64,000 nt of DNA, taken from contig JANWIG010000026.1 in assembly GCA_025449975.1 (NCBI GenBank), forward strand, positions 1-64,000. Direction: 5' to 3'. The stretch is from Thermoactinomycetaceae bacterium. GTDB lineage: Bacteria > Bacillota > Bacilli > Thermoactinomycetales > Thermoactinomycetaceae. Shown piece by piece: positions 5,660 through 53,274 of the stretch (position 1 is its first letter; every line of letters begins with the position of its first letter). A program made the position numbers and the translations under genes. The notes under the pieces are model-generated. The model saw nothing but the letters and a program-made list of their open reading frames with translations. It was not told where the DNA came from and did not search any database.

Positions 5660-5944
5660 ATGGAGAAAAATATACCGCACACCTACCCTCGACTCAATTT
5701 GCCCAAGCGGACTTTGCCCATCCAGCTCGAGTCAGGCACCCCTACGGCACACGAAACATCTTTCTTAGTGCTGCTTCCGCCAGGACCTGACACGGTTCGA
5801 AAGCTTTCGTTGCGTAGGACCCAACCGTCAACACCTTCAAGACAAACCAGACCTTACACAAAAAGAGCCTCAGGCAGGACTTCAACCCCGCTAAGGCCGG
5901 TTGCGGGTTATAGGGCACGGCCAGCTCCCCGTCTAGTGCGATAT
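5660..5944 (-). ncRNA. scr: Signal recognition particle RNA, large Bacillus type
   Basis: Minus-strand RNA of about 280 nt. The diagnostic helix 8 (Ffh-binding) region reads GTCAGGTCCTGGCGGAAGCA followed by GCACTAAG, at about 5770-5790. The 5' part has the Alu-domain type sequence CTAGACGGGGAG..GCCGTGCCC and GCGGGGTTGAAG. The gene sits beside dnaX as in B. subtilis. It acts with Ffh and FtsY in co-translational targeting of membrane proteins. The ends are estimated from the promoter and terminator, so they may be off by about 5-15 nt. Plus-strand ORFs across this region are artefacts. Confidence 0.93.
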
Positions 5945-6613: not shown

Positions 6614-8545
6614 TTATTCCTTTTTACTCGTAACAGATACGTCTGTCTGCGATTCAGTTGACTTTTCCTTTTGTCTACTAGCCATGACTTGAGCAAATAG
6701 CCGCGCAGGAATCACATCACCCGTCAGTTCTGCTTGTCCCCTTCGTTGATCCACGGTATCATTAAAGGCCATAACAACTGTTAATAGATTAGGTGTAAAT
6801 CCAACAAACCAGGCACTGTTTTTACCCGGTTCATAACCACTATATTCAGCAAATTGTTGACAATCAATCTGATAAGTCTTACAATTTTTCAGCTGTTCTA
6901 CTGACTTCTTTTGTAAGATTCTCATCATGTATTGAGCTGTCTCAGCCCGAAACATTTGCACCGGATTGCCGTCTCGATCAATCTCTTCTCCTTCCCGAAT
7001 TCTTACTTCTTCCCCGCGATGGTCAAAAACACGAAGAACGGCATGGGCTTGGACCATTTTTCCATTATTCGGGAAAACAGAGTAAGCCTGAGCCACTTCT
7101 TTAATCGTCACCCCTTTTCGCCAACTGCCCATGGCGAGAGCAACCACATTCGCATCCTTTTGATCCAAAGGAAAGCCCAACTTCTGACCATAATCTAGTG
7201 ATTTCGATAAGGTCACCTTTTCTCTTAAAATCTCCAATGTCAGTTGATGGCGTTCATCTTTCACGATTTCATCCAGATGTACCGTTTCGATTTGTGTTGC
7301 CTTTTCATTGACTGAAAGAGATGATAACTTGTCGATTCCCATTTGTATTGCAGGGGCGTATACGGTTAAGGGGCGAATCACTGTTCCAGGCTGCACGGGT
7401 TGCAAAGCCCAATTATAGGTTCCTTGGTGGTAATTTCTACCTCCCCCAACCGCCTCAATTCGACCATTCTGAGGATTCATAATCACAATTGCCGCATTGA
7501 CCAAAGATTCTGGATAAAAGATCCGGTCATCCTTAAGCACCTTTTCTACGATTTTTTGTGTATCGAGATTTAGCGCTGTATAAATCCGAAATCCACCGCG
7601 CATCAGTTCTTGTTCACTCACGTTATACCTTTCTTCTAACTCTTTACGAACCACATTTTTATATGCCCCGAGCTCCTTTGGTCTTAAATATTTTTGGAGA
7701 TAATTCCGATTGACCCCTAGATCCCTCTTCCGGTAAATCTCCTTCTCTTTTTCGGTGATCAGTGCTGAAATCGAAGACGACTCAGACATTTTGGCAAGGA
7801 CGACATTGCGCCGCTGGAGAGCCTTTTCTTGCTGCTTTTTGGTTCCATAGGGATTATAGCCATAGGGGGCTTTAGGTAAACCAGCCAACAGAGCGATCTC
7901 ATGAGGCTCTAATTTGTGTTTGGTTAAGTCTTTACCAAAGTAGATCTTCGCCGCCATTTGTACACCTTTGACTTGATAGCCAAAATCGATATGATTTAAA
8001 TATGCTTCCAATATTTGCTCTTTCTTATAGATTTTCTCTATTTCTAAAGCGACAAACAGCTCTTTTAACTTTCTAATAAACGTCTTTGTCCGGTCCTCAA
8101 GAATCAAATTTCTAGCCACTTGCATGGTAATCGTTCCACCTCCTTCTACTGAAGAGAAAGAGATCGTATTCACCCAAGCGGCCCGCATCAAACTAAACCA
8201 ATCTACTCCTTGATGCTGAAAAAAACGCTCATCTTCTACTTTGATAAACGCCAATGGGAGATCTTTATTTAAACGGTTAATCTGTTCGAGATGAAGATAT
8301 TCCTGCTCTTCTGCTCCATATCGAGCTACCTCTTTCCCATCTGCATCATAGATGATCGATGAGTAATCAACCTGATTCAGATTATCGATCGGCAATGTTT
8401 TGGCAACGAGAATAATCATGATTAAACATACTACGCCAAATACCAAACAACAAAACGAAGCCCACAAAATTATTTTTAGCCACAATCTTCTTTTTTTTCT
8501 CCGAATCTGATGCTCAAGGATCTCTCTCAGTTGATATTCTTTCAT
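6614..8545 (-). CDS. Class A penicillin-binding protein with degenerate transpeptidase motifs
   Basis: A 643-residue bifunctional-type PBP. It has a basic cytoplasmic tail, a membrane anchor at about 22-50, and a GT51 glycosyltransferase domain (about 60-240) with E104 in EDERFFQHQG, GGGTITMQ and KKEQILEAYLN, all apparently intact. The transpeptidase domain (about 345-620) has the right fold landmarks but not the catalytic residues. The SxxK position reads T388-V-I-R391, SxN reads S449-L-D451, and KTG reads Y568-S-G570. I infer a lipid II polymerase without cross-linking activity. The nucleotides at the SxxK site read clearly (ACA GTG ATT CGC). It is an isolated gene. The Ser/Thr-rich C-terminal tail is short. 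Confidence 0.88.
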   Translation of the reverse strand: MKEYQLREILEHQIRRKKRRLWLKIILWASFCCLVFGVVCLIMIILVAKTLPIDNLNQVDYSSIIYDADGKEVARYGAEEQEYLHLEQINRLNKDLPLAFIKVEDERFFQHQGVDWFSLMRAAWVNTISFSSVEGGGTITMQVARNLILEDRTKTFIRKLKELFVALEIEKIYKKEQILEAYLNHIDFGYQVKGVQMAAKIYFGKDLTKHKLEPHEIALLAGLPKAPYGYNPYGTKKQQEKALQRRNVVLAKMSESSSISALITEKEKEIYRKRDLGVNRNYLQKYLRPKELGAYKNVVRKELEERYNVSEQELMRGGFRIYTALNLDTQKIVEKVLKDDRIFYPESLVNAAIVIMNPQNGRIEAVGGGRNYHQGTYNWALQPVQPGTVIRPLTVYAPAIQMGIDKLSSLSVNEKATQIETVHLDEIVKDERHQLTLEILREKVTLSKSLDYGQKLGFPLDQKDANVVALAMGSWRKGVTIKEVAQAYSVFPNNGKMVQAHAVLRVFDHRGEEVRIREGEEIDRDGNPVQMFRAETAQYMMRILQKKSVEQLKNCKTYQIDCQQFAEYSGYEPGKNSAWFVGFTPNLLTVVMAFNDTVDQRRGQAELTGDVIPARLFAQVMASRQKEKSTESQTDVSVTSKKE

Positions 8546-49189: not shown

Positions 49190-51805
49190 TTATCCTAAGT
49201 TATTAATTAGATTATGCAATCCACGTAAGGCAATTTTTCTTTTTTCGATTTTGTTTAGTTCCTGACGCTTACGGCTGCTGTGTGAGAATGGGGTAAAGAA
49301 GTCTTCCCACTGATTGTAACCATAAGCATCTTCAAACTCGATCGTATCCCGTTTTAACGGATGAGAGCTATTGTTTTGTTCCTCTTGAGTTTGAGGGTCG
49401 TTGGTCTCATACGGGCTGTTTACGAGTTCTTCTACTTCTTCTTGTGGGGGCATTTGGTTCATATGCATCGACGTTTGTGTAAAGTTATTCTGCGTTGATG
49501 CAAAGGATGTTTGCGAAAAATTGGTGTTTCTTGTAGAGCTTTGTGTTTGATTGGCTGTGTGCATTTGGTTTTGTAGTGGTCGACTAGCGATATTGGCAAA
49601 TAAACGGTTTTTCTTTTTTGCCCGCGATCGGCGTCTGGAAGTGAAAGTTTCTATTGTTCCCGTCTCAATAAATTCTTCTTGTCTTTCCTTCTGCATCGAT
49701 GGATTTTCAGATGGACGGAGTGTATTTTCCTTTTGTGTCTCCATAGGTCTAAAAGGAGATTCAAAGGACTGCTCTGTTTGCATTTCAGTTGTTTGATTTC
49801 CTCTCATCTGCCCTCTAGCAAAAGGTGACTGGAAAGAGGATTCTTGTTTAAACTCGATCGATTGTTGTCCTCTAGCAAAAGGTGATTGGAAAGGAGCATC
49901 TTTAAATTCGATCGGTTGTTCGATTTGCTGGTTTACTTGCCCTTTCGCAAAAGGTGATTGGAAAGAGGCTTCTTGCGTAGCTTCCGCTGGCTGTTCATTG
50001 CTTTCTTCCACTTGTTCTTTTGCAAAAGGTGACTGGAAGGCAGTTTCTTGCTTAATCTCAGTTGACTGATCGTTGCTTTCTTCCATTTGTTCTTTTGCAA
50101 AAGGTGACTGGAAGGCAGTTTCTTGCTTAATCTCAGTTGACTGATCGTTGCTTTCTTCCATTTGCTTTCTGGCAAAAGGTGATTGGTACGAAGCTTCTTG
50201 TCTCGTTTCAGCCGATTGCTCATTGGATTCTTCTGTTTGTTCTTTCGCAAAAGACGATTGAAAAGATAGATTTTGTGTTTGAAAAAAGGGGGATTGAGTT
50301 GTATTGAGTTGAAACGTCTCTTCTGAAGAAGTGCTATTCCCCGTTTTCTCCTGATCCAATGATTCATTATGAGATTGGTAAGATAGAGAATGGCGACTCC
50401 TACCCAACATTTTTTTACGTAACTTTAACTCACGGCTATAAGTTTCTTGTTTTGACTGATTTGCTTGGCTAATAAATGGATTCATAGAGATGATCTCATT
50501 TGGCTCTTTTTCTTTTCTGTTATTTTCCATATTTTCGAATGCAGATTTTTCTGTTGCGGAAGTCTCTTTTGCCTCCAATTGATGCTTTCTGCGGAATAGC
50601 TTTTTCCTGAGTGAAAATCCTCTGGGTTCAAAAGGTGATTCTCTTTTCTCTTTGAATAATTGGTTTGTTAGATTTTGGCGACTCCCTGCAAGATAGTTGT
50701 CTTCCTCTGTAATGGTTGACTTTTCCTTGGTAGTAGTTGAAAAAATTTCTGTTTTTATGCTAGCAAAGTCGGTTGCTTGTCCTTCCGTGTGATCGGGCGA
50801 AGCAAACTTATCTTTTTCTACTTCTTCGCTTTGGTTGTTTTCAACGGTCGATTGTTGCTTACTCACTTCAACAGCTGGTTCATTTATAGAGATGCTTTCC
50901 TCTTCCAAGGATGGCCCAGGTTGATCGATCATCTCGTCTTCTTCAATCGGCGTAGCTTTTGGTTTTGTTAAATGGTCGTTCGGAACAAACTCTTCGGAAA
51001 TAGTATATTCTTGTAGAGAAAATGGGTTTCCGTTCATTTGTTGTACCGACGACGCATTCGGTATAAATTCTTCAGCAGTGATCGGCTCATGCTGCATCGG
51101 CTCTTCCGTAAGATCCACTGTTCCAGCTATTTTATCATGATCGCTTTCTTCAAGGTCCAGAGGTGATTTTTCTGTATCGATTTCTTCAGCCGTGTTCAAT
51201 TCTTCACTTTCGAACTCCTCTTCTTCAGCCGCAGCGACTTCATTTTCGAAATTATGATTTTCTTCTATGGTTGCTTCTTCACTATTCTCTTTTCCAGGAA
51301 TTTCCTCCGATAGATCCTCTAAAATTTCTTCAGCCGTTACTTCAATCTCTACATTTGAATCATCTAACTCTTGGTTTTCTTCGATGGAGTCCTCTGTGTT
51401 TAATCCGCTCTCTAGGGAAGATTCTTCTACTTTTTCGAGAATCGCTTCTACTTCATGGATTTCTTCCTCTACATCTTTTACCTTTTCCTCTGTGTGAATG
51501 TTTACTTCATGCTGAACGGGTTTGGATTGAAACAAGTACGTTTTTAATTCATATAAGGAAGTATTTAATGATTGTGTATGAACGAATAATTTTACCGGGG
51601 ATTGCTTTCTACAGACTTCTTCGGAATCATTCACTGGTACTTGTAAACTCATGGAAGCTATTAAATTGGATTGTAAATCAATATATAATACTTTTTTTCC
51701 CTGTTCTTCTAAAGTTTGAATAGCTGTTTCTCCGTGATCCCCGGAACCTAATACAATGAGATCAAATTCATTTAATGACATGATTTTCTCTGCTACTAAA
51801 AACAT
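49190..51805 (-). CDS. Large acidic low-complexity protein with FQSPFA repeats
   Basis: 871 residues and no known family. The N-terminus (about 10-45, FDLIVLGSGDHGETAIQTLEEQGKKV) looks like the first strand-turn-helix of a nucleotide-binding Rossmann fold, but only about 100 residues look folded. About 110-330 is a Glu-rich segment. A middle part contains RKKLFRRKH and RKKMLGRSRH type basic patches. Eight repeats of FQSPFA(K/R) type follow (about 500-690), then a basic SRRRSRAKKKNRLF patch, a Gln/Asn/Thr-rich tail and a helical end (ELNKIEKRKIALRGLHNLINNLG). It is probably a disordered scaffold. It is encoded against the replication direction, downstream of the actin-like gene. Confidence 0.8.
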   Translation of the reverse strand: MFLVAEKIMSLNEFDLIVLGSGDHGETAIQTLEEQGKKVLYIDLQSNLIASMSLQVPVNDSEEVCRKQSPVKLFVHTQSLNTSLYELKTYLFQSKPVQHEVNIHTEEKVKDVEEEIHEVEAILEKVEESSLESGLNTEDSIEENQELDDSNVEIEVTAEEILEDLSEEIPGKENSEEATIEENHNFENEVAAAEEEEFESEELNTAEEIDTEKSPLDLEESDHDKIAGTVDLTEEPMQHEPITAEEFIPNASSVQQMNGNPFSLQEYTISEEFVPNDHLTKPKATPIEEDEMIDQPGPSLEEESISINEPAVEVSKQQSTVENNQSEEVEKDKFASPDHTEGQATDFASIKTEIFSTTTKEKSTITEEDNYLAGSRQNLTNQLFKEKRESPFEPRGFSLRKKLFRRKHQLEAKETSATEKSAFENMENNRKEKEPNEIISMNPFISQANQSKQETYSRELKLRKKMLGRSRHSLSYQSHNESLDQEKTGNSTSSEETFQLNTTQSPFFQTQNLSFQSSFAKEQTEESNEQSAETRQEASYQSPFARKQMEESNDQSTEIKQETAFQSPFAKEQMEESNDQSTEIKQETAFQSPFAKEQVEESNEQPAEATQEASFQSPFAKGQVNQQIEQPIEFKDAPFQSPFARGQQSIEFKQESSFQSPFARGQMRGNQTTEMQTEQSFESPFRPMETQKENTLRPSENPSMQKERQEEFIETGTIETFTSRRRSRAKKKNRLFANIASRPLQNQMHTANQTQSSTRNTNFSQTSFASTQNNFTQTSMHMNQMPPQEEVEELVNSPYETNDPQTQEEQNNSSHPLKRDTIEFEDAYGYNQWEDFFTPFSHSSRKRQELNKIEKRKIALRGLHNLINNLG
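49800..50290 (-). repeat. Tandem coding repeats, 75-bp unit in the best copies
   Basis: Eight units encode FQSPFA-type peptides. Units starting at about 50036 and 50111 are offset by exactly 75 bp and nearly identical, showing recent in-frame duplication. Outer copies are more diverged or shortened. This is protein-coding repetition, not a CRISPR array. Confidence 0.85.
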
Positions 51806-52083: not shown

Positions 52084-53274
52084 TTATTTTTTTACTGACT
52101 TTTGTTTTTTTGTACTCACGGGTTCATTGGCAGAATCTGAAACAGTAAACTCTTGTTGAATCGTTGCAGCGGCTTCAAGTAGATCTTTGACGGGGACAGA
52201 TTTCGACTTAGACTGGGCAAATTTACATAATCCGAAAGCGTTGGCAAATTGTGCTTCAATCCCATAATCCTCTGCAAATATTAATTTTTCACCAAACCGT
52301 TCGCGATAGTATGGTTTAAATGGAATCGAGGCGCCCCCTGTTAGAATGATATAGGTAATATCGTCGCCATAGTCTAATCGGTTCCATACTTCGTCTACTA
52401 AGTTTTCTCCCACTTCTTTAATGCAGTCGTGAACCAATTGGCTTACATCATGTAATTTTCCTTTAAAACTAATTTCACCAGAACTCACAATTCTTGGAAG
52501 GCTCCAAATTGGGTATTCTTTCCCTGTTTGGTCAAGGTCTACAGAACGGGTAAATTCTAGCAACCGCTTCGCTAACAATTGGTAGACAGATAACATTGCA
52601 AAACGGGAGGTAAAGCTTTGCCGTTTAATGATCGTTTCCCCATGTAAAGTTTCAATATCTGAAGTACCGAAGCCTAAGTCATTGATACTTACCTTTTGAA
52701 TAAACAAATCCTCGTTCAAAAGATTTCCATCGCGATCCAAAGCAATATGGAACAAGGTTGCCATCGGTTGACTAATTACAAATAAGTTTTCCTTTTTAAT
52801 TTCAAATTCAACTCTTCTATAAGGTAGGTTTCCTTGTTTTACTTCGAAACGATGTTTTCCGATCAGTCTTCTTTTTAACTCATCTTTGTAATCGATGTAA
52901 CTATCTGTTGGAAGAGCTACAGAAACAATCGGCTCTGTATTTCCTTGCAACATGAGACCTGTACCAACACGGAACATAATCAAGTATTCTTGTTCACGAA
53001 ACCAGGTTGGACTAAAGAGACGACGTTTATGAGAGTCAAAAAGCTCATCATCGCCTGATTGTTCAATAGCTAATTTACCGACAAACCACTCGCGGTCGCC
53101 TTCTACTTCTCGGTACATGATATTATGTGGGTCATTGTTATAAGTAATTTCACCTACACGGTTTGGAACTACCATGTTGCGAATAAACATTTTGTAAAAT
53201 TTGCCTTTTGCACGGCTGACAACTTTGTTTCCATAATAGCCTTGGTCATTACCTATATATACAGGCACACTCAT
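52084..53274 (-). CDS. Actin-like ATPase, ParM/Alp type
   Basis: 396 residues with the actin fold order. Phosphate-1 loop: GNDQGYYGNK (8-17). Phosphate-2 loop: NDLGFGTSD (198-206). Adenosine motif: ILTGGASIPFK (310-320). C-terminal helix region: YGIEAQFANAFGLCKFA (337-353). Such proteins polymerise with ATP, and on plasmids (ParM, AlfA, Alp7A) they push or pull DNA. MreB-type features are not evident. GGAGG precedes the ATG by about 9 bases and a sigma-A promoter stands upstream. A ParR-like adaptor is not adjacent; the next gene is the FQSPFA repeat protein. A chromosomal actin-like protein beside oriC, a parS site and noc is unusual. Confidence 0.85.
   Translation of the reverse strand: MSVPVYIGNDQGYYGNKVVSRAKGKFYKMFIRNMVVPNRVGEITYNNDPHNIMYREVEGDREWFVGKLAIEQSGDDELFDSHKRRLFSPTWFREQEYLIMFRVGTGLMLQGNTEPIVSVALPTDSYIDYKDELKRRLIGKHRFEVKQGNLPYRRVEFEIKKENLFVISQPMATLFHIALDRDGNLLNEDLFIQKVSINDLGFGTSDIETLHGETIIKRQSFTSRFAMLSVYQLLAKRLLEFTRSVDLDQTGKEYPIWSLPRIVSSGEISFKGKLHDVSQLVHDCIKEVGENLVDEVWNRLDYGDDITYIILTGGASIPFKPYYRERFGEKLIFAEDYGIEAQFANAFGLCKFAQSKSKSVPVKDLLEAAATIQQEFTVSDSANEPVSTKKQKSVKK

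Follow-up and report, generated by a model that had tools for sequence, protein, structure and literature searches.

PMC4810414 sets out the three transpeptidase (TP) motifs of class A penicillin-binding proteins (PBPs) and what the SxxK serine does, and PMC12539705 describes the EDxxFxxHxG motif of the glycosyltransferase (GT) domain, with its catalytic glutamate. Among 100 class A PBPs of Streptomyces, Ogawara (2016) listed 13 that are without the SxxK residues; SxN and KTG are mostly conserved in these proteins, and the author regards them as capable of PBP function (PMC6273383). Among laboratory mutants, the TP-inactive S398G form of S. aureus PBP2 supports growth if PBP2a (mecA) is present (PMC7617827), and with the TPase-dead S487A form of C. 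difficile PBP1 septa form but growth is not supported (PMC12539705). Given the Streptomyces precedent, class A PBPs with lost TP motifs are not new as such. In the literature searched, which covered few subscription journals, no naturally occurring class A PBP that has lost all three TP motifs was found, the cases retrieved being those from Streptomyces and laboratory mutants only; nor did that literature describe clade-wide loss of the three motifs together with GT conservation and repeated origin. Class A PBPs are the textbook example of bifunctional enzymes, and how tightly polymerisation and cross-linking need to be coupled in a single protein has been investigated mainly with laboratory point mutants.

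Architecture of the protein and its two active sites

We analysed a window of 64,000 nucleotides from a Thermoactinomycetaceae bacterium (contig JANWIG010000026.1, positions 1 to 64,000), in which an open reading frame with an ATG start encodes a protein of 643 aa (P0001). The features of the gene, in window coordinates, are as follows.

6614..8545, minus strand: class A PBP homologue with conserved GT51 and lost TP catalytic residues (ORF, Pfam, PDB relatives by sequence and fold)
8399..8485, minus strand: hydrophobic part of the N-terminal helix, residues ~21-49, presumed membrane anchor (sequence; modelled helix 2-49)
7787..8338, minus strand: GT51 (Transgly) domain, residues 70-253 (Pfam 1.4e-53; 0/46 conserved GT positions lost)
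8219..8239, minus strand: GT motif V-E104-D105-E-R-F-F, residues 103-109, catalytic glutamate column (E104 and D105 in 44/44 homologues)
8060..8077, minus strand: GT motif I-R-K-L-K-E162, residues 157-162, second glutamate column (E in 43/44 homologues)
6671..7507, minus strand: TP-fold domain, non-catalytic, residues 347-625 (AlphaFold model; structural alignment)
7373..7384, minus strand: SxxK site, T388-V-I-R391 (S and K in 44/44 homologues)
7247..7255, minus strand: SxN site, E431-R-H433 (S and N in 44/44 homologues)
6836..6844, minus strand: KTG site, Y568-S-G570 (K in 44/44 homologues)

Pfam assigned Transgly to residues 70-253 (181 bits, 1.4e-53) and gave a weak Transpeptidase match to residues 455-621 (44.8 bits, 1.2e-11). 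The NCBIfam model TIGR02074 (PBP_1a_fam) scored 341.2 bits, which is under its curated cut-off of 508.75, and TIGR02070, the monofunctional GT model, scored 112.2 bits, under its cut-off of 182.65, on a protein in which a TP-fold domain follows the GT domain. The solved relatives found by sequence in the PDB are class A PBPs. As in that class, an N-terminal helix precedes GT51, the GT glutamates and motifs are present, and a PBP/TP fold lies after the GT domain, but the SxxK, SxN and KTG sites read TVIR, ERH and YSG. The gene adjoins a bacterial large SRP RNA (5675-5941, minus strand; Rfam RF01854), which serves as a landmark. Elsewhere in the window, an actin-like protein (52084-53274, minus strand; Pfam ALP_N and MreB-like_C) is encoded near ParB/Soj-like genes recognised by eye, adjoined by a gene for a repetitive protein of 871 aa with no Pfam match (49190-51805).

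The active-site columns were read from an alignment (A2) of the window protein with 44 class A PBPs, taken from 77 complete ORFs of named genomes. The catalytic S, K, S, N and K, present in 44/44 homologues, correspond to T388, R391, E431, H433 and Y568, so that every one of them is replaced. In the GT domain, E104 and D105 are identical in 44/44 homologues and E162, presumably the second GT51 glutamate, in 43/44. The alignment, which had been suggested as a check, therefore bore out the original prediction of a class A PBP with a dead TP domain and intact GT motifs, in which SxxK has become TxxR (T388-V-I-R391) and KTG has become YSG (Y568-S-G570). The predicted change of SxN to SxD did not hold. 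The triplet S449-L450-D451, which had been picked as the SxN motif, lies 18 residues downstream of the aligned SxN column, E431-R432-H433. In the AlphaFold model, E431-H433 is located at the end of helix 424-430 and the start of helix 433-444, and residues 449-451 sit within helix 446-455. Since the true SxN column is ERH and not SLD, the TP site is more degraded than was first stated. The loss falls preferentially on catalytic TP positions (6/7 lost, versus 9/34 of the other TP positions; Fisher p = 0.006).

AlphaFold2, run on A2, gave a model with a mean pLDDT of 85.4 and a pTM of 0.79. With VIA-align, this model matched 2olu (Penicillin-binding protein 2, which we take to be that of S. aureus) at Z 36.9 and 4.4 A over 519 residues and 2v2f (pneumococcal PBP1a) at Z 32.9 and 2.7 A over 307 residues; against PBP TP domains it superposed at about 2.7-3.1 A across 300-330 residues. 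Foldseek agreed with VIA-align on a class A PBP fold. The predicted structure of the window protein is that of a complete class A PBP.

Distribution and descent of the dead forms

Across 41 genomes (its own and 40 relatives), the best matches to the window protein came from two congeners, at 55 and 50% identity. Both congener genes are full-length and syntenic, lying between recR/dnaX/kinase genes and tadA/fur/znu-like genes (recR, dnaX and the histidine kinase were named by Pfam, the rest by eye), with TVIQ/SLR/YSG and SAIQ/SLS/YSG at the three sites. TSLR/VAG and TALR/HPG proteins, which have lost SxN too, are encoded by two genomes from other genera, elsewhere in the genome. The survey for the same substitutions, also proposed beforehand, thus yielded five full-length proteins in three genera with lost TP catalytic residues; the dead form is present in 3/3 genomes of the genus and 5/23 genomes of the family examined. 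No clade member was found in the named genomes among the matches listed, where relatives reach at most 43% identity (best segment). Sequencing errors or a lone pseudogene had been a concern, which is removed by the independent genomes that carry full-length ORFs with the same sites lost: two syntenic congener genes and two members in other genera. No partner gene is conserved beside all five members, and the neighbours differ outside the syntenic trio. In one congener a YceG/MltG-like gene (L047:5769-6866, minus strand) lies near the dead PBP, and in the other a spore-germination-like gene trio, recognised by eye (L046:2757-6488), lies upstream of it.

In 5/5 members R or Q stands in place of the SxxK lysine, and the SxN asparagine and the KTG lysine are lost in 5/5. 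The C-terminal extension of the active relatives is absent in 4/5 members, which have a shorter C-terminus. Threonine replaces the SxxK serine in 4/5 members (TVIR, TVIQ, TSLR and TALR), as it might if Thr388 served as the nucleophile of a remodelled site with residual or altered acyl transfer. We consider this highly improbable, as the remaining catalytic residues are gone from every member and the fifth member has serine in place of threonine.

Trees were built from GT columns only, because a degenerate TP domain could pull rows together. The five members formed one clade with an SH-aLRT of 97 in IQ-TREE, from which 12 of 111 rows had been removed (distant class A PBPs, a truncated GT, a monofunctional GT and two outgroups), and with a support of 0.79 in FastTree. 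The five members share a single origin. On the GT tree the dead label requires at least four changes, or six with GT-only proteins counted, although such counts do not by themselves separate loss from gain, and three further dead groups stand apart from the five-member clade. One of these is a second dead class A PBP of the window genome (672 aa, SILA/SLN/RSA; L012:10435-12453, C45, minus strand), which nests among the orthologues of both congeners, which are active (STIK/SLN/KSG); it is a recent independent loss. Another is a pair from two other families of the order (L286:5246-7660, minus strand, SAIR/SLH/LAG; L285:876-3470, minus strand, TAIR/SLN/FTG), in which long C-terminal extensions are retained, and a further pair belongs to another genus of the family (L287:4294-6888, minus strand, SSIM/SSG/KTG; L288:3942-6524, plus strand, SAIT/SSG/ITG). 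Four GT-only proteins of 312-360 aa (L012:3596-4534, minus strand; L051:15026-16024; L052:7819-8823; L052:858-1940) are class A PBPs by descent. A single clade holds three of them, and the fourth has a separate origin in genome G002; the 334-aa L052 row was counted as GT-only and not as SxxK-lost.

A census of the order comprised 107 complete unique ORFs, with 92 intact, 9 full-length dead and 6 GT-only or truncated. It excludes ORFs cut by locus ends (L135, L158, L174 and L210, of which L210 was read whole separately), and the tenth dead protein of the order lies outside it, its ORF being cut at the locus end and read whole separately. The controls were intact in 77/77 ORFs from named genomes (80 loci, of which 77 gave complete ORFs that were counted) and in 60/61 of the same class outside the order. 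The sole exception outside the order (L271:498-2969, minus strand, genome G075) has SSIN for SxxK and keeps SWN and KTG. With the query clade excluded, the enrichment of dead PBPs in the order was not significant (5 dead/92 intact versus 1/137 in the controls; Fisher p = 0.08), and the sampling behind this comparison is uneven: the order contributes several paralogues per genome, the controls for the most part a single best match from each genome.

None of the ten dead proteins of the order has the SxxK lysine; nine are without the KTG lysine, eight without the SxN asparagine and five without the serine nucleophile. G576 (reference numbering), a glycine of an LGG motif downstream of SxN, is present in 95% of active homologues and lost in 10/10 dead proteins. 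Core TP positions, such as G450, A454, G458, P482, Y590, G597, W678, G681 and T683 (reference numbering), are kept in 10/10. Since Pfam still assigns Transpeptidase to 9/9 dead proteins scanned, counts of class A PBPs by domain search overstate the number of β-lactam targets.

Constraint on the two domains and possible functions

Constraint was compared at 46 GT and 41 TP positions, chosen for their conservation in 90% or more of 92 active homologues. Of the GT positions, the five members have lost 0, 0, 1, 0 and 0 (45-46 of 46 are kept, the catalytic glutamates among them), and of the TP positions 15, 13, 13, 15 and 21. Pairs among the five share 60-78% identity in the GT domain and 29-54% in the TP domain, and active pairs of equal GT identity have a mean TP identity of 52-70%. 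In nine of the ten clade pairs the TP identity is under even the lowest value for active pairs of that GT bin, and one pair is at the edge. The TP domain of the clade is therefore under weaker constraint than that of active homologues. The identity at four-fold sites was 0.15-0.37 in all ten clade pairs, chance being 0.25-0.30, and the ORFs are intact in 5/5 genomes despite this saturation. Because four-fold sites are near chance while the TP domain is still open and alignable, its residual identity reflects selection: purifying selection, though weakened, still maintains the TP fold. The original prediction had gone further, to a selected reuse in which the catalytic loss itself was favoured. 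This does not follow, because the TP domain changes faster here than it does in active homologues, and relaxation explains the catalytic loss equally well.

Faster TP evolution could also mark a redundant class A PBP that is decaying from its C-terminal side in several lineages. Consistent with such decay, the C-terminus is shorter in 4/5 members, GT-only and truncated relatives exist in the order, and the second PBP of the window genome is dead although its counterparts are active in two congeners. The near-unchanged GT domain and the ORFs that stay open in all five genomes at saturated four-fold sites are unlike whole-gene decay, and we regard this explanation as improbable.

A pseudo-receptor or scaffold, in which the TP shell would carry the main function by binding stem peptides or divisome partners non-covalently and GT activity would be secondary or absent, is somewhat easier to defend, as each of the order's ten dead proteins keeps the structural core residues of the TP domain and the predicted PBP fold is complete. 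However, the GT domain, with its catalytic glutamates kept, is far more constrained than the TP domain, and the SxN region and the pocket loops differ among the clade members. We therefore think it rather unlikely.

The retained GT positions, the inheritance of the pattern in five genomes and the constraint on the TP fold instead point to a glycan polymerase with a non-acylating TP domain, which had been one of the two functions proposed at the outset and remains the best reading of the sequences. The window protein is probably a membrane-anchored class A PBP that polymerises lipid II through GT51 and forms no acyl-enzyme, carries out no cross-linking and does not bind penicillin covalently. 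Class A PBPs with an acylated TP domain can still polymerise, so little is gained from the additional suggestion of beta-lactam insensitivity.

The gene probably goes back to the duplication of an active, PBP4-like class A PBP in an ancestor common to several genera, after which the duplicate would have lost TP catalysis and, in 4/5 members, the C-terminal extension. Its GT domain, to judge from the residues, would act as an anchored lipid II polymerase, and the pseudo-TP shell would have been retained either because the GT domain needs it for folding or positioning or because it provides a surface for docking. The new strands would be cross-linked in trans by the active PBPs of the same genome. 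The window genome (G000; 2.52 Mb, 97.7% complete) gave 11 matches including the window protein: seven other class A PBPs with intact SxxK/SxN/KTG (or KSG), the second dead PBP, a GT-only protein in the same cluster and a separate single-domain GT. That cross-linking in trans is feasible is shown by S. aureus, in which PBP2a allows growth with a PBP2 whose TP domain is inactive (S398G). Three points weigh against the polymerase reading. GT activity is read from the residues, and a structural or regulatory role without polymerisation would fit them too; a partner gene shared by all five members is absent from the neighbourhood; and the weak TP constraint could represent slow decay once the GT domain sufficed. 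In the same genus, the GT-only relatives show that a GT descended from class A PBPs can survive with no TP domain at all.

A broader proposal is that in this Spo0A-carrying order PBP4-like duplicates repeatedly became non-acylating pseudo-TP polymerases, with the pseudo-TP domain as the structural or docking partner of an active paralogue and cross-linking carried out deliberately in trans. We put it forward tentatively, as possible but doubtful. If true, it would be a pseudoenzyme-enzyme pairing within the PBP family, perhaps comparable to the SxxK-less Streptomyces PBPs. Spo0A was found in 41/42 genomes of the order searched and is thus near-universal, so that sporulation does not separate genomes with the protein from those without. 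The action in spore cortex or septal wall and the recognition of peptides by the TP pocket, both suggested at the outset, are conjectural. No conserved promoter was detected in the three upstream regions compared, and σ70-like matches were at the shuffle level (9, versus a mean of 7.0).

Comparison with known systems

Listeria monocytogenes PBP4 (3zg7-3zga) resembles the window protein in domain order and fold, with 30% identity over 425 residues in the structural alignment, and is among its best PDB sequence matches (E 1.6e-43). According to the entry titles, Listeria PBP4 was solved with ampicillin or cefuroxime bound, whereas the active-site S, K, S, N and K are all replaced in the window protein. 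Monofunctional glycosyltransferases (MGT, TIGR02070) have the activity proposed here, lipid II polymerisation without transpeptidation, but the window protein retains a full-length TP-fold domain.

The SxxK-less PBPs of Streptomyces are, like the window protein, natural class A PBPs without SxxK; as far as their published description allows the comparison, the window protein differs in being without SxN and KTG too and in coming from another phylum. S. aureus PBP2 S398G and C. difficile PBP1 S487A combine a working GT domain with an inactive TP domain of their own, as proposed for the window protein, but both are described as laboratory point mutants, unlike the natural protein studied here. 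Inherited in nature, with TP catalysis gone but the fold and GT domain kept, and with at least four changes to the dead state in the order, such a family offers a probe of the non-catalytic role of the TP domain.
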